This document shows, piece by piece, positions 2,406 through 22,715 of a stretch of 33,582 bases of DNA. The stretch spans positions 130,144 to 163,725 of the forward strand of contig MEVA01000006.1 of the NCBI GenBank assembly GCA_001772625.1, given 5' to 3'. The translations under genes were made by a program, and so were the position numbers. Position 1 is the first letter of the stretch. The number at the start of each line of letters is the position of its first letter. Source of the DNA: a candidate division WWE3 bacterium RIFCSPHIGHO2_01_FULL_42_13. Its GTDB lineage: Bacteria > Patescibacteriota > WWE3 > UBA101185 > UBA10185. The notes beneath the pieces were generated by a model, which searched no databases, was not told where the DNA came from, and was given only the letters and a program-made list of their open reading frames with translations.

Positions 2406-3368
2406 TTACGAACTAAGATAGGGTTTAACTAAATCCGCTACCTGCTCATAATTATCCGTGTCCATTAATTGTTCCCTCAACTTATCGGCACCGCGAAATG
2501 ATTTTACATAAACCTTAAAAAATTTCTTCATCACATCAAATTTAAGATTTTCTTTGTAGGTATCACAGTAAAGTTTTGTGTGCTTCAAAAGCAGTTTTAG
2601 ATACTCTTGGGTAATATGTTCTGTTGAGACCTTTTCAAACACCCAAGGATTTAAAAATACTCCTTTGCCAATCATAACTCCATCAACTCCGTACCTTGTA
2701 TGAGCCATTACAGCCTCCTCGTAGCTTGTAATATCGCCATTTCCCACAACAACTGTATCGGGAGCAATCTGATCACGCAGTTTTACAACCTTTTCTATTT
2801 CGTCCCAATGAGCCGGAACTTTTGATTGCTCCTTTGCCGTTCTACCGTGAATTATTAGCGCAGAAAGCTTTTGTTCAAGTAGAAACTCTGCCCATGATTC
2901 TGTAACTATGGCGCTCACTCCTATGCGAGTTTTAACACTTACTGGAAGTCCTCCTGCGCCATCTTTTGTAGCAGAAATTATTTCACCGGCAAGGGTTGGG
3001 TTTTTAATATGTGCTGCCCCGGAACCAATTCTTAACACTCCCCTGTCAGGGCACCCCATGTTTATATCAATTCCGTCAAAGCCCAACTCTTTTACAAGTT
3101 TAGCTGCGGCATAAAAATTCTTAGGATCAGTTCCCCATACTTGAGCAACAATAAAATGCTGCTTTTCAGAAAACTTAAGTCTTGGAATGGTTCTATCGTA
3201 GCCTTTAGAAAATAAAGCTTCTGTATTTGTAAATTCTGTGAAAAGAACATCGGGCTTGGCCGTTTCTGAAATCATTTCTCTAAAAACAAAGTCTGTAACG
3301 CCATCTAAGGGTGCCAAAGTCAAAAAAGGCTTGTTATCAAGTTTTAGTTGTTGCCAGAAGTTTGTCAC
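2406..3368 (-). CDS. dus: tRNA-dihydrouridine synthase
   Basis: APLDGVTDFVFR, GFDGIDINMGCPDRGV, VKTRIGV, IIHGRT, GNGDI motifs; GTG start 6 nt after TAAAAT. Confidence 0.95.
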   Translation of the reverse strand: MTNFWQQLKLDNKPFLTLAPLDGVTDFVFREMISETAKPDVLFTEFTNTEALFSKGYDRTIPRLKFSEKQHFIVAQVWGTDPKNFYAAAKLVKELGFDGIDINMGCPDRGVLRIGSGAAHIKNPTLAGEIISATKDGAGGLPVSVKTRIGVSAIVTESWAEFLLEQKLSALIIHGRTAKEQSKVPAHWDEIEKVVKLRDQIAPDTVVVGNGDITSYEEAVMAHTRYGVDGVMIGKGVFLNPWVFEKVSTEHITQEYLKLLLKHTKLYCDTYKENLKFDVMKKFFKVYVKSFRGADKLREQLMDTDNYEQVADLVKPYLSS

Positions 3369-3377
3369 TTGGCTATT

Positions 3378-3791
3378 TTACGCCAACATCTCAATAAGGG
3401 GTAATATCCTAGGATTAATAAACTTGTCCGGTATTTCGTAGAAATCAAACCACTTCCACTCAGAAAACTTGTCGGGTTCAGTAAGTTTTGCGTCTTGGTT
3501 TGTAGTGCAGTAAAAGACAAAAAGAGCATCGCCTTTTTTGGCACCCTCAACCTCGCCCAAAAACTTACCAATCTTTAAATCTGTGATACCTGTTTCCTCA
3601 AGCGCTTCCCTTCTAAGATTATCTTCAACACTTTCGCCTGCGGTGCATCTTCCGCCTGGCGTTGTCCAGACTGATATCTTTTTGAATTTATCGGGCGTGT
3701 AATGCCGCAACCCTAAAAGAATCTTATCGTTTTTAATAATTACTGCCGAAGTACACGTATGTTTGTTACCAATTTTATTTAGTTCTTTCAT
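3378..3791 (-). CDS. NUDIX hydrolase
   Basis: GGRCTAGESVEDNLRREALEETGI NUDIX box; start at 3791 (MKELNK) avoids the large overlap with pyrH implied by the 175-aa ORF. Confidence 0.85.
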   Translation of the reverse strand: MKELNKIGNKHTCTSAVIIKNDKILLGLRHYTPDKFKKISVWTTPGGRCTAGESVEDNLRREALEETGITDLKIGKFLGEVEGAKKGDALFVFYCTTNQDAKLTEPDKFSEWKWFDFYEIPDKFINPRILPLIEMLA

Positions 3792-7652: not shown

Positions 7653-8204
7653 ATGACTAAATACATACTTCATGGTGGTAATGCTCAACACCAAGATCCA
7701 AGAAACGACGAATTCTTCAAGGAAATTCTAAAAGACGCTCCGATAAACGCTAAGGTTTTATTAGTACATTTTGCAGGCAGGCCCGAAAAAAGTGAAATAA
7801 ACAAAGAAAGAGATACTGCCCACTTTGAAAAGGTTAAAGAAGATCGAAATTTAACCTACGAGATTGCAAATGAAGAGACTTTTCCAGCTCAGATACTAAA
7901 TGCGGATGTAATTTATCTTGGTGGCGGTACGACCACAAGGTTACTTGAAACTATAAAGAAATTCACTAATCTAAAAGAATTATTTAACGGAAAGATCGTT
8001 GCCGGAGAATCTGCCGGGGCAAATGTTCTATCTGCTTTTTCCTACAGTAAGTCTGGAGGTGGAGTTCTTCAAGGTCTTGGTATGGTTCCGGTTAAGACAA
8101 TCCCCCATTATAAGGGCGAGCATAAGGAAGATCTTGATGAAATACCTGGGGATTTAGAAACGTTGCTGCTTCCGGAATACGAGTACAGGGTTTTTAACAT
8201 ATAA
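7653..8204 (+). CDS. Peptidase S51-like (dipeptidase E family)
   Basis: IYLGGGTTTRLLE and nucleophile elbow GESAGANVLS; TATAAT 6 nt upstream of ATG. Confidence 0.85.
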   Translation: MTKYILHGGNAQHQDPRNDEFFKEILKDAPINAKVLLVHFAGRPEKSEINKERDTAHFEKVKEDRNLTYEIANEETFPAQILNADVIYLGGGTTTRLLETIKKFTNLKELFNGKIVAGESAGANVLSAFSYSKSGGGVLQGLGMVPVKTIPHYKGEHKEDLDEIPGDLETLLLPEYEYRVFNI

Positions 8205-8213
8205 AAACTTGAT

Positions 8214-8242
8214 TTGACAAAACCTCCGCCGTCCCCTATCTT
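8214..8242 (+). promoter_or_regulatory. sigma70-type promoter of the T-box transcript
   Basis: TTGACA (8214-8219), 17-nt spacer, TATCTT (8237-8242); predicted TSS about 8249-8251. Confidence 0.75.
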
Positions 8243-8249
8243 ACCACCT

Positions 8250-8504
8250 AGTGTATTTTAAAAGCGTTGAACGGGAGACGCCTGAGTTTACAGGCCCTAG
8301 TGGTCCCGGGAGCTGGTAGAGCGAACACCACAGTAAGTAGCTTTATCCGGAAGTTGGCCGTTACCTTCCAACAGGATACCACTGCTAAGTCAAGTATCCA
8401 TAAAGTCTTCTGCAGAGATGCAGAGGTAATAAAGAGGTGGCACCACGGATTACCGTCCTCTATTTCTATCAGGAAATTATCCTGCTGGGGATGGGGATTT
8501 TTTT
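8250..8504 (+). ncRNA. T-box riboswitch leader (transcription attenuation type)
   Basis: Antiterminator GAGG-[TGGCACC]-ACGG-ATTA-CCGT-CCTC (8434-8460) with the canonical 7-nt UGGNACC bulge; Stem III-like hairpin CTTCTGCA-GAGA-TGCAGAGG (8407-8426); competing terminator CCGTCCTC (8453-8460)/GGGGATGG (8487-8494), then T7 at 8498-8504. Stem I only partly resolved. Confidence 0.85.
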
Positions 8505-8537
8505 ATCCCTTAAAAACAATTCAAATAAAGGAGAGAA

Positions 8538-9875
8538 ATGCGCACTAATATAGCAGATGTGACCAACATCGTGTTAGGGGAAAAGTATCAAAGCAAGCTG
8601 GGAATGTTACGATCCTTGTCGGCGTTGTTAAGTCCGGAAGAGATCCGTAACCGGTTACCAGAAAGTATGATTGCTGAAGCTTCTAAGGTTAGTCTTGGAG
8701 AACTTGATGGGAAAGTGAAAAATCGAAAAGATCTTTCCTTCATCGAGGCACTTGGAGGCATGCTTTATGTAGTCTATGCAACCAACAATCTGGTCAGAAA
8801 TACTTTGGCTCCAAGTCTTGGTTACGACGAGGCAATTGCTAAAGGTTCGTACTTCTTGACCTTAATGGCCGCAAAAGAATCGTTTGTCGGTCTGACGGAT
8901 CATGAAGTGGCGGGGCTTGTTGCAGCAAGTCAATTGGACATTGTCTACTTCCCAAAGCTTGAGTCTGTCTTTGAGACAGCGGGGATGGGTGCCGATAGGG
9001 GTTGGGGGTCAAAGGACATCAAAACTATCAATATCTCGACCCTTTCGGCGTTTGTTATTGCCAGCCTGGACCTGTATTCGATGAAGCACGGTTCCTACGG
9101 CAATACGACTAAAGTGGGTTCGACTGATGTGCCGGAGAAGTTCGGTGCAAACATTGTGCTTGCTGATCCAGACCAAATCCAAGAACTTTTGGATGAGACG
9201 AAATTCTGGTTTAGTGACGCGCATTCGGTGAAGACCTTGCACTACTTGTCGCATCTTTTGATGGTGGAGACGATCAACCATGTGATCGGCCCAATGACAG
9301 CGCCGGTCTCCAAGGAAACCAAGCTTTACAAGGTTCTGGGTGTAAATCAAAACGTTCACCCGAAGGTAATAGCAAAAGCCTACGCTTTTTTGCATAGGCT
9401 GGGTTTAGTTAATCTGGGAGGGGTGGTAGCTTTAGGTGGAGTTGATGTTAAACCAAATGCAACCAAATCTAATAGCCCTTCTTGGTTTAAGGAGCATTCC
9501 TACTTGGACGAGCTTTCGCCTACGGCAACTGTAGTTAGTATGGCCGCGGGGCAACAGTTCTTGGGAACCGAAGTTGTTGATGCGGGCACTTTCGGTCTCA
9601 CTATCGATGAGGAAACTCTTAAGGTGAGAAATGAACTTGCCGTTTTACTCAAGGCGGATGAAGAAGCATTACGCGGCGGGCCTCTAGCAGAATATCTTGC
9701 CTGCAATGTGGCCTTGGTACTATCCGCTACTGACTTAGAAAGGGGATTAGATTACAAGGCGGGGCTTCGTGCTAATTTTCAACGAGCCCTAGCTTCAATC
9801 GAGAATGGTGATGCTTTAGCCACCCTCGATAACTATGTGCAAAAGACTGGGGGAAAAAGAGTTAGCTGGTTGTAA
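8538..9875 (+). CDS. divergent TrpD-family (anthranilate phosphoribosyltransferase-like, glycosyltransferase family 3) protein
   Basis: TINISTLSAFVIA...KHGSYGNTTKVGSTDVPEKFGANI and NHVIGPMTAPVSKETKLYKVLGVNQ match the TrpD layout; SD aaaggagag; about 100-aa N-terminal part differs. Confidence 0.75.
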   Translation: MRTNIADVTNIVLGEKYQSKLGMLRSLSALLSPEEIRNRLPESMIAEASKVSLGELDGKVKNRKDLSFIEALGGMLYVVYATNNLVRNTLAPSLGYDEAIAKGSYFLTLMAAKESFVGLTDHEVAGLVAASQLDIVYFPKLESVFETAGMGADRGWGSKDIKTINISTLSAFVIASLDLYSMKHGSYGNTTKVGSTDVPEKFGANIVLADPDQIQELLDETKFWFSDAHSVKTLHYLSHLLMVETINHVIGPMTAPVSKETKLYKVLGVNQNVHPKVIAKAYAFLHRLGLVNLGGVVALGGVDVKPNATKSNSPSWFKEHSYLDELSPTATVVSMAAGQQFLGTEVVDAGTFGLTIDEETLKVRNELAVLLKADEEALRGGPLAEYLACNVALVLSATDLERGLDYKAGLRANFQRALASIENGDALATLDNYVQKTGGKRVSWL

Positions 9876-10794: not shown

Positions 10795-11832
10795 TTAAGG
10801 TAGGCGCATAAGGTGCATTGCGCTCCGGGTTCTTTCCACTGTTGCAGCCGCAAGTTCACGTGCGCGTGCTGTTCCAGATGAAAGCACATCCATGGTATCG
10901 AGATTTTTTTTGGCATCTGCGCGCCGTGCGCGGATCGGTTCGAGAAATGATTCCAAAGCTACGATTAGCTTCTTCTTCACTTCAACGTCTCCGACTTTGC
11001 CTTTTTTGTAGCGGTCCTTAAGGTCCGCAACCTCTTCCACATTTGTGTTGAACGCATCGTGGTAGATGAAGACAGGATTGTCTTCAACAGTGCCTGGCAC
11101 ATCGGCACTTGTGCGTTTTGGATCGGTAAACATGCCCATGACGAGGTTTTTCACTGTTTCGGGGTCGTCTTTGAGATTGATCGCATTCCCGGCGGACTTG
11201 GACATCTTTGCCTGTCCATCGACGCCAACCAAGCGGCCTACATCGCCTATCAAGGCGTTGCATCTGTTAAAGGTTGGGCCGTACAGTTTGTTGAAAGCGC
11301 TTGCAATTCGATTGTTGTCGCGAAGGTGAGGAGCTTGGTCTTCACCCACGGGTACTAGGATAGAGCTTTTCACTTGATTTGGATCGTGAGAGACAAACAG
11401 AATGTCTGCCGCCTGGCTCACAACGTAGGTCATAAAGCCGACAGTTGCCGACTTTTTCAAGTGCTTCCGCTCTTCCCTGATGGTAGGATTACGTTCCATC
11501 CAGGTGAATGGGGTAACCATACCAAGGTAAACCGTGAGTTCTGTAAGTTCCCTCACTTCACTTTGAAGGACAAAGTGCACGTTAGATCTGGTGGGATCGA
11601 GCCCAACCGAGACCCAGTCAAGCACAACGTCCTCAACAGCCTGCACGATAAGGCCCGGATTTTCCGCGTGGGTTGTTAAGGCCTGGATATCCGCAATCAG
11701 GAAAAAGCACTCGTACTCGTCCTGCAACGGAATCCATTGCTTTAACGCACCAACGTAATGACCAAGGTGCAGTGGTCCTGTAGGGCGAATGCCTGTTAGG
11801 AGCCGCTTTAAACTTTTACTCTTGTCATCCAT
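10795..11832 (-). CDS. trpS: Tryptophanyl-tRNA synthetase
   Basis: TGIRPTGPLHLGHYVGAL (HIGH region), GEDQAPH, KMSKSAGNAI (KMSKS). Confidence 0.95.
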   Translation of the reverse strand: MDDKSKSLKRLLTGIRPTGPLHLGHYVGALKQWIPLQDEYECFFLIADIQALTTHAENPGLIVQAVEDVVLDWVSVGLDPTRSNVHFVLQSEVRELTELTVYLGMVTPFTWMERNPTIREERKHLKKSATVGFMTYVVSQAADILFVSHDPNQVKSSILVPVGEDQAPHLRDNNRIASAFNKLYGPTFNRCNALIGDVGRLVGVDGQAKMSKSAGNAINLKDDPETVKNLVMGMFTDPKRTSADVPGTVEDNPVFIYHDAFNTNVEEVADLKDRYKKGKVGDVEVKKKLIVALESFLEPIRARRADAKKNLDTMDVLSSGTARARELAAATVERTRSAMHLMRLP

Positions 11833-11920: not shown

Positions 11921-11926
11921 TCTCAG

Positions 11927-11999
11927 TACGCGCGGCGAGACTCGAACTCGCAACCTGCGGTTTTGGAGACCGCTACTCTGCCAATTGAGCTACGCGCGC
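11927..11999 (-). tRNA. tRNA-Trp (CCA), no encoded 3' CCA
   Basis: GCGCGCG TA GCTC AATTGGCA GAGT ... GCGGT CTCCAAA ACCGC ... GCGAG TTCGAGT CTCGC CGCGCGT A; genomic sequence then continues CTG. Confidence 0.95.
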
Positions 12000-12130
12000 A
12001 TTCTAAACCAGACTAGTTTCGCATTGTTTAAATATTTGTGCAGGATTTGCTTTAGCGGGAGCTAGGCTAGTTACCAGTGCATCATAGCTTATAATAATAC
12101 CAGTGTCTAGTGTGTAGTATAATGGGGTTT

Positions 12131-12967
12131 ATGAGTCGTTTAAGTGATGCTTTGGGCACAAATCGTACATTGATAGGTGCGCTCCATTTTCCTCCTTTAC
12201 CCACTTTTGAGGGATTTACCTCCTTAGAAGAGGTTTTAGAGTTTTCTTTAAAGAACGCAGAAAAACTTGAAAAGGCTGGATTTGATTCAATCATTGTTGA
12301 AAATAACTACGATCTTCCCCATTTAATAAAAGTTGGCCCAGAAACAATTTCAGTAATGAAGTATTTAACAAAAGAAATTATGAAACAGGTTTCAATTCCG
12401 ATTGGAATTTCAGTTTTATGGAATTCTTTTGGGGCAGCTTTTGAAATTGCCAAGGAAACAAACGCAAAGTATATTCGGGTTCCGGTTTTTGTAGATCGGG
12501 TAGAGACCTCATACGGTAAAGTAATCGGAGAGCCGGAAAAAGTTATTGAAGTTAGAAAGAATCTAAACGCCGATGACGTCCTTATCCTTGCAGATATTCA
12601 AGTTAAGCACTCAAAACTTTTAAATGTTAGGCCAATCAGCGAAGCGGCAAAAGAGGCTGTAGAAAAAGGGGCGGATGGACTTATTGTTACAGGAAATTGG
12701 ACAGGTGACTCACCAAAAATGGGAGACCTTAAGCAAGTACGGCTAGCTTCGGGAAAAGATTTTCCTATTATTGTAGGAAGTGGCGCCACGAAAGAAAATA
12801 TTAAAAGTCTTATGAGTGTTGCAACCGGAGTAATAATTGGAACAGATCTGAAGGAGTTTGATGTAGCTTCCCGCGAGAAGCATGTAAATCTTGTTGGTCC
12901 ATATACACCAATTAGCGAAAAAAAAGCTAAGGAATTTGTTGAAGCATTTAGACTTGCAACTAAATAA
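12131..12967 (+). CDS. BtpA-family protein
   Basis: IGALHFPPLPTF..., DSIIVENNYDLP, GADGLIVTGNWTGDSP, VGSGATKENI; ATG at 12131 lies 7 nt after TATAAT (12118-12123). Confidence 0.85.
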   Translation: MSRLSDALGTNRTLIGALHFPPLPTFEGFTSLEEVLEFSLKNAEKLEKAGFDSIIVENNYDLPHLIKVGPETISVMKYLTKEIMKQVSIPIGISVLWNSFGAAFEIAKETNAKYIRVPVFVDRVETSYGKVIGEPEKVIEVRKNLNADDVLILADIQVKHSKLLNVRPISEAAKEAVEKGADGLIVTGNWTGDSPKMGDLKQVRLASGKDFPIIVGSGATKENIKSLMSVATGVIIGTDLKEFDVASREKHVNLVGPYTPISEKKAKEFVEAFRLATK

Positions 12968-21635: not shown

Positions 21636-22715
21636 ATGGACGAGAATTTGGCTAAACTGCAGGAAATCGGATCTGCCCTTGCAAAGCTAGTTGACGGAAA
21701 TGACTTAACAGCAGACGAAGCCACAAAGCTTTTTCAAACAATATTTACCTATGACACAGAAGGTTACCACCTAGCTATGGTTATGGGCGCAATTCATGCA
21801 AAAGGTGAAACTTCAGACGAGCTTTTAGGTTTTTACAATGCAGTTAGCGCCCTGGCAGTGAGGTTGAATACAAAATTAGATCCAGATAAGGTTATTGATC
21901 TATCTGGCACGGGAGGTGGGAGTTTTAAAAGTATAAATGTAAGCACAGCAGCCTCTTTTGTTGTAGCGGCGGCTGGTTACACAGTTGCAAAGAACGCTTA
22001 TTGGGCAGTAACAAGCCCAACGGGTAGCGCTGATGCCTTTGCTGCCTTTGGAGTTGATATATCAAAGCTTTCTAAGGAGCAGGTTGAGCAGGCGCTAACA
22101 GAAGTTGGAATCTGTCCAATCTTTGTAGCCTTTATTAGTCCTGGACTTGCCAACAGGGCAAAGATATCCGGGAAAATATTTAGAGAACGACAGCTTAGAG
22201 TAAGATCGCCCTTCCACCTCGTTTCAAATGTATTTTCACCCCAAACCATGAATTATCGAGTTTATGGTTGCTATTCAGAAAGATACCTTCAGGTTTTGGC
22301 CGAACTTTTTATGAAACTGGGATTTAAGAAATCTTTAACTATGTGGGCGGAAGTTGGAATGCCAGAATTTTCTAATGTTGGTAAAACTATTGTATTGGAA
22401 CAGGTTGGAAAAGAAATTAAAAGGTATGAGGTTACCCCGAAGGATTTAGGAGTTAAAGAAGCCAAATTAGATGACATTAAAACAGGAGGAAAGGAACAGA
22501 ATATCGCGGATTTTACTAATATATTAAAAGGAGAAGAAACCGGACCAAAGGCTGATTTGGTGGCAATTAATGCTGGAGCTGCTCTGTATGCATTAGGAAA
22601 TGTTGAGACTTTAAAAGAAGGGACAGAAAAAGCTAAGGAATTGTTGTCGCAGGGTAAAGCGTACGAAGTGCTTGAGAAATTAGTTACTGGGTTTGGTAAC
22701 CCAAGTTCACTATAA
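21636..22715 (+). CDS. TrpD-family (anthranilate phosphoribosyltransferase-like) protein, paralog 2
   Basis: DLSGTGGGSFKSINVSTAASFVVAAAGYTVAKNAYWAVTSPTGSADAFAAFGVDI; TATACT close upstream of ATG. Confidence 0.85.
   Translation: MDENLAKLQEIGSALAKLVDGNDLTADEATKLFQTIFTYDTEGYHLAMVMGAIHAKGETSDELLGFYNAVSALAVRLNTKLDPDKVIDLSGTGGGSFKSINVSTAASFVVAAAGYTVAKNAYWAVTSPTGSADAFAAFGVDISKLSKEQVEQALTEVGICPIFVAFISPGLANRAKISGKIFRERQLRVRSPFHLVSNVFSPQTMNYRVYGCYSERYLQVLAELFMKLGFKKSLTMWAEVGMPEFSNVGKTIVLEQVGKEIKRYEVTPKDLGVKEAKLDDIKTGGKEQNIADFTNILKGEETGPKADLVAINAGAALYALGNVETLKEGTEKAKELLSQGKAYEVLEKLVTGFGNPSSL

Follow-up and report, generated by a model that had tools for sequence, protein, structure and literature searches.

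T-box riboswitches were placed by a 2008 survey in Firmicutes, Actinobacteria, Chloroflexi, Deinococcus-Thermus, and Proteobacteria. According to PMC7583486 (section 6.2), transcriptional T-boxes are generally said to need a long Stem I carrying an elbow-binding module, and T-boxes without that module are mostly translational. Tryptophan T-boxes have been described before trp genes of Firmicutes and Chloroflexi (trpE, trpB-like in Dehalococcoides) (PMC2494555). A literature search that covered few subscription papers and no bioRxiv preprints returned no paper linking T-box riboswitches to CPR, Patescibacteria, or Parcubacteria.

We analyzed a stretch of 33,582 nucleotides (the window; contig MEVA01000006.1, positions 130,144 to 163,725) from a candidate division WWE3 bacterium, in which a T-box leader precedes a TrpD-like gene; coordinates below are window positions, on the + strand unless stated. 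Like the class I transcriptional T-boxes of RF00230, the leader has a K-turn, a specifier loop, a Stem II S-turn, a Stem IIA/B pseudoknot with an F-box, and a Stem III, followed by an antiterminator with a UGGN bulge and a competing intrinsic terminator. Unlike them, it has a Stem I of only ~52 nt that lacks the distal double T-loop module (IDTM), carries an extra hairpin, scores below the Rfam cutoff, and belongs to a CPR host. The lack of an IDTM is shared with the translational class II T-boxes of Actinobacteria (intermediate or ultrashort Stem I; PMC7583486, PMC7778990), as is, in related patescibacterial leaders, a specifier in the apical loop of Stem I. In contrast to class II, the window leader has a terminator and no sequestrator of the ribosome binding site, the related leaders serve many amino acids, and the phylum is different. 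Finally, the leader resembles the tryptophan T-boxes of Firmicutes and Chloroflexi (PMC2494555) in its UGG specifier and Trp-related target, but here the regulated gene is a solitary TrpD-like one, and TrpB and TrpC were not found in the genome. Altogether, we consider the leader very probably to be a shortened variant of a transcriptional, tRNA-Trp-sensing T-box, with tRNA binding, sensing of charging, and read-through as inferred steps.

Anatomy of the leader

The initial annotation proposed a T-box at 8214-8538, and the covariance model bears this out: in an Rfam scan of a 381-nt stretch in E-value mode, positions 8258-8463 matched RF00230 over model positions 1-219 with 65.8 bits and an E value of 3e-14. 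RF00230 was the sole Rfam family found within 8180-8560 in this mode, and at genome scale the match to the leader had an E value of 1.2e-14. The match is significant, although it lies below the Rfam gathering score of 93 bits, and a scan of the window at that threshold returned tRNAs only and no T-box. This T-box was the only one that RF00230 found in the genome (641,607 bases, 87% complete). Folding of the whole leader compared with shuffled sequence gave a weak signal (z of -1.72 and -0.76). The T-box had been called complete, a description that needs qualifying, as the distal, tRNA-elbow-binding part of Stem I is absent. The promoter, Stem III, antiterminator, and terminator already annotated were each recovered at, or within one base of, their original positions, while Stem I with its K-turn and UGG specifier, the Stem II S-turn, the IIA/B pseudoknot, and the hairpin at 8374-8399 are additional.

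A candidate sigma-70-type promoter lies at 8214-8242, with TTGACA at 8214-8219, a 17-nt spacer, and TATCTT at 8237-8242 (10 of 12 consensus matches). A generic promoter scan performed at chance level (2 found, 2.2 expected), but TTGACA-like sites occur at similar positions just 5′ of homologous leaders, and this recurrence makes the promoter more credible. The shortened Stem I (8263-8314) was delimited by the RF00230 alignment and by compensatory changes. Its base pairs AGC with GCU (8263-8265/8312-8314) and is followed by a UUGA/GGA K-turn, a middle stem (8272-8276/8304-8308), the specifier internal loop, and a 5-bp apical stem (8280-8284/8291-8295) closed by a 6-nt loop, which leaves no room for an IDTM. 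On its 3′ side, the specifier loop reads CCUAGUGG (8296-8303), ending in the triplet UGG (Trp) at 8301-8303.

Stem II (8315-8347) has 8 bp and an S-turn formed by GAA (8323-8325) and AGUA (8336-8339). The pseudoknot that follows (8348-8372) consists of IIA (8348-8350/8358-8360) and IIB (8353-8357/8368-8372) and contains the F-box CCGUUA (8358-8363). The hairpin between IIA/B and Stem III (8374-8399, GGAUAC...GUAUCC) has no counterpart in the Rfam model, to which it aligns as an insert, and its outer stem covaries. Stem III (8407-8426) pairs 8407-8414 with 8419-8426 around a GAGA loop; the motif on its 5′ side is AAGUC where RRRNG is expected, so that the last base is not G, and the AA on its 3′ side is present.

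The antiterminator (8433-8461) comprises helix A1 (8433-8437/8457-8461), the bulge UGGCACC (8438-8444), and helix A2 (8445-8448/8453-8456). Its 3′ strand is shared with the hairpin of an intrinsic terminator (8453-8504), which can form as 8453-8460/8487-8494 or as 8458-8468/8486-8496, the latter being the more stable register by minimum free energy, and is followed by seven T residues (8498-8504). Antiterminator and terminator are thus mutually exclusive. The terminator hairpin has a free energy of -19.0 kcal/mol versus -8.6 kcal/mol for the antiterminator, the balance expected if the off state is the default and the antiterminator needs a ligand to hold it. A chance terminator was considered and rejected. 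Downstream, a Shine-Dalgarno sequence, GGAGAG (8530-8535), lies outside the terminator hairpin, which ends at 8496, and the TrpD-like gene (8538-9875; 445 amino acids, Glycos_transf_3 family) has its start codon at 8538.

Homologous leaders, the specifier, and the presumed tRNA ligand

Relatives of the TrpD-like protein were found in candidate division WWE3, another patescibacterium, Azambacteria, Uhrbacteria, and one Woesearchaeon, and the gene is rare, occurring in 4 of 380 sampled patescibacterial genomes. A T-box lies directly 5′ of it at all 10 bacterial loci with readable upstream DNA, namely the window, three WWE3 loci (G010, G019, and G033, the first two from the same family as the window genome), and six loci from other Patescibacteria (L099, L101, and L103 to L106). 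No T-box was found upstream of the archaeal homologue (L100). In L098, a tRNA-like stretch with paired acceptor arms and a GCCA end, which ARAGORN rejects, lies between T-box and TrpD-like gene (3350-3457).

We compared these ten leaders together with one before trpS (L022) and one before a tRNA-Trp gene (L084). At six positions of helix A1, standard pairs occupied 68 of 72 cells; the outer positions vary among AU, GC, CG, and UA. Helix IIB covaries (GUUGG/CCAAC, UUGCUU/AAGCAA, GCGG/CCGC, GCUGG/CCAGC, GCUGU/ACAGC, and GCUAU/AUAGC), as does the middle of Stem I (CGGGA/UCCCG, UAGGA/UCCUA, GCGGA/UCCGU, and AGGGA/UCCCU). Hand delimitation of the arms favors pairing, but their placement followed the known T-box plan, with no free search. 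For 11 of the 12 leaders, a script detected a terminator hairpin built on the 3′ strand of the antiterminator, and separate inspection revealed one in the twelfth, L022. Homologous leaders lacking compensatory changes would have spoken against a T-box; instead, the antiterminator covaries and competing terminators recur. The tryptophan T-boxes of the phylum have three lengths of Stem I, all of them seen with the TrpD-like gene: the Uhrbacteria leaders (L104 to L106) have a long Stem I, the window leader has a shortened one, and in L099, L022, and L084 it is ultrashort and carries UGG in its apical loop.

The presumed ligand, a tRNA-Trp with anticodon CCA, is encoded at 11926-11999 on the - strand. 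It has G1-U72 and A73, and its gene lacks the 3′ CCA that most other tRNA genes of this genome encode. The UGGC bulge expects G73, and C opposite A does not make a standard wobble pair, so that the only tRNA-Trp found in the window genome is mismatched to the bulge; the same A73 mismatch, again without an encoded CCA, recurs in G019. The tRNA-Trp of most relatives has G73; at six other loci, a C or U of the bulge stands opposite it, and U opposite G73 has been recorded for tryptophan T-boxes (PMC7778990). Because a tRNA end with A73 no longer fits UGGC, the leader could descend from a T-box and keep its hairpins, yet have escaped tRNA control and now act as a constitutive attenuator. We regard this as unlikely, since the leader retains an intact specifier, bulge, pseudoknot, and antiterminator, and covariation among species persists in these elements. 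Moreover, the genome is 87% complete and may lack a further tRNA-Trp gene with G73; G033 has two tRNA-Trp genes, both with G73.

Alternatively, the T-box might work but take its specifier from a shifted frame, GUG or GGU, and so read tRNA-Val or tRNA-Gly. The sequence GUGGUCC is invariant in the four WWE3 leaders, so that GUGGU in those four alone leaves the frame unfixed, and the specifier is followed by U in the window leader. The base after a specifier is usually a purine. The more distant leaders speak against a shifted frame: they read A(A/U)UGG(G/A) and share only UGG, the tRNA-Trp codon, with the WWE3 sequence. This triplet stands at the specifier position of all 10 TrpD-like leaders and is all that they have in common there. 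Moreover, the genome's own tRNA-Val genes have A73 and tRNA-Gly has U73, no better suited to UGGC, the gene context is that of tryptophan, and a U likewise follows UGG in L122, the leader of a trpE-like gene. We therefore think a Val or Gly specificity very improbable. A translational T-box, in which an alternative hairpin hides the ribosome binding site, is scarcely credible, for although a short Stem I without an IDTM is typical of translational T-boxes according to PMC7583486, the hairpin here ends at 8496 and is followed by T7, GGAGAG lies beyond it, and the homologous leaders repeatedly show terminators followed by T-runs.

The reading of the leader as a T-box is based on its sequence and fold, on homologous leaders with compensatory changes, and on the conserved specifier and overlapping terminator. 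For a transcriptional switch sensing tRNA-Trp, RNA polymerase would start just 3′ of 8242 and transcribe the leader, and the UGG of the shortened Stem I would pair with the anticodon, CCA, of tRNA-Trp. As this Stem I lacks its elbow-binding end, the pairing would be helped by Stem II and the IIA/B pseudoknot. Were the tRNA uncharged, its 3′ end would pair with the UGGC bulge and hold the antiterminator (8433-8461), allowing read-through into the TrpD-like gene; were it charged, the terminator would form and transcription would end at the T-run (8498-8504). Since uncharged tRNA would permit read-through, the TrpD-like enzyme would be made when tryptophan is short.

The TrpD-like target and its neighborhood

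The TrpD-like protein belongs to the Glycos_transf_3 family (PF00591; 73.9 bits, above the gathering cutoff of 27) but fails the TrpD model TIGR01245, with 90 bits against a cutoff of 199.05. Like the anthranilate phosphoribosyltransferase TrpD of Sulfolobus (1gxb), to which we aligned it, it keeps the KT(I/V)N-ST, KHG, GS-DV-E, and DE(L/V)SP motifs. Unlike that enzyme, it has VET in place of GIRT, so that the Arg, which we take to be involved in anthranilate binding, is replaced by Glu. A search for TrpB and TrpC (indole-3-glycerol phosphate synthase, IGPS) in five WWE3 genomes carrying the TrpD-like gene found neither, with 14 of 14 controls positive. Given the missed TIGR01245 cutoff, the change of the anthranilate-binding Arg to Glu, and the failure to find TrpB and TrpC, the target is evidently not an ordinary TrpD. 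A second TrpD-like gene in the window (21636-22715) passes the TrpD cutoff with 252 bits and has no T-box; the two proteins share only 31 identities in 138 residues.

The target had been annotated as a lone, divergent TrpD-like protein. Its membership in the TrpD family stands, but it represents a sporadic TrpD-like subfamily that tends to adjoin BtpA-family, TrpRS, and tRNA-Trp genes. In the window, trpS, encoding tryptophan--tRNA ligase, lies nearby on the - strand (10795-11832) without a T-box of its own, and a BtpA-family gene follows on the + strand (12110-12967). The latter accompanies the TrpD-like gene at most homologous loci, where its copies were recognized by likeness, the family name resting on a profile match for the window copy; comparison of BtpA with the PDB gave marginal TIM-barrel matches only. 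A tRNA-Trp gene lies within several other TrpD-like loci, and a TrpRS gene is present in L099 and, to judge by the sequence, also in both L101 and L104. Some loci add an EamA-type transporter gene, a PLP decarboxylase-like gene, or an AstE/AspA-like gene, the last of which neighbors the TrpD-like gene in L100, L101, and L104. Separately, high-scoring T-boxes precede genes that look AstE/AspA-like in L002, L004, and L007, with an apparent Tyr specifier in L002. The position of the TrpD-like gene suggests a role for the enzyme in tryptophan supply or salvage.

T-boxes in other Patescibacteria

A T-box in a CPR-like genome was initially thought unusual, a view that the wider sample contradicts. 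In a phylum-wide sample of 287 genomes, and with strict filters that make the count a lower bound, RF00230 at an E value of 1e-6 or less identified T-boxes in at least 80, only 9 of them above the Rfam cutoff; at an E value of 0.01 or less, 25 of 57 genomes of relatives were positive. T-boxes thus appear widespread and under-annotated in Patescibacteria.

Leaders with an ultrashort Stem I precede serS (AGC, two cases), glyS (GGC, three), aspS (GAC, two), ileS (AUC, two), and trpS (UGG, one), and the specifier agreed with the downstream aminoacyl-tRNA synthetase, as named by NCBIfam, in 10 of 10 cases checked. This agreement indicates that related genomes make use of this type of switch. Clear terminators were found in L020, L021, L022, L025, L084, and L127 and can be read in the L118 and L099 sequences. 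None was seen in L016, L017, L024, or L030, which may be translational. Hairpins like that at 8374-8399 occur in many patescibacterial T-boxes, often with an internal loop of UNU/GAG or UC/CAAG. For comparison with canonical T-boxes, we scanned viral contigs with the exact T-box core AGGGTGGTACCGCG; because the 56 matches were mostly chance-like, the hairpin cannot be called peculiar to Patescibacteria.

Other tryptophan leaders, with a long Stem I and a UGG specifier, stand before genes that look trpE-like by sequence only (L121 and L122). In several genomes, a T-box is followed directly by a tRNA gene: tRNA-Trp in L084 (1215-1548; UGG) and tRNA-Tyr in L229 (UAC). T-boxes also precede tRNA-His in L213 and, with a weak antiterminator, in L019, and tRNA-Arg in L115, L117, and L189. 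These tRNAs match, or seem to match, the specifier. In L084 and L229, the tRNA starts ~15 nt or less from the terminator T-run, which leaves little space for a separate tRNA promoter. Our literature search found no report of T-boxes before tRNA genes.

We think it reasonably likely that Patescibacteria hold a large and largely unannotated set of T-boxes, many of them terminator-type leaders that lack an elbow-binding module and carry an added hairpin, and that this set would regulate aminoacyl-tRNA synthetase genes, an uncharacterized tryptophan-linked gene set around the TrpD-like enzyme, and, in some genomes, cognate tRNA genes. These leaders would test the rule, as given in PMC7583486, that transcriptional T-boxes require the elbow-binding end of Stem I, thought to be needed for speed. 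The Rfam cutoff hides most patescibacterial T-boxes, with 9 of the 80 positive genomes passing it. CPR bacteria lack most amino acid biosynthesis, and to our knowledge little is known of gene regulation in them. A sensor of tRNA charging that is common in the phylum would give a direct handle on the genes that answer amino acid starvation, here a TrpD-like enzyme.
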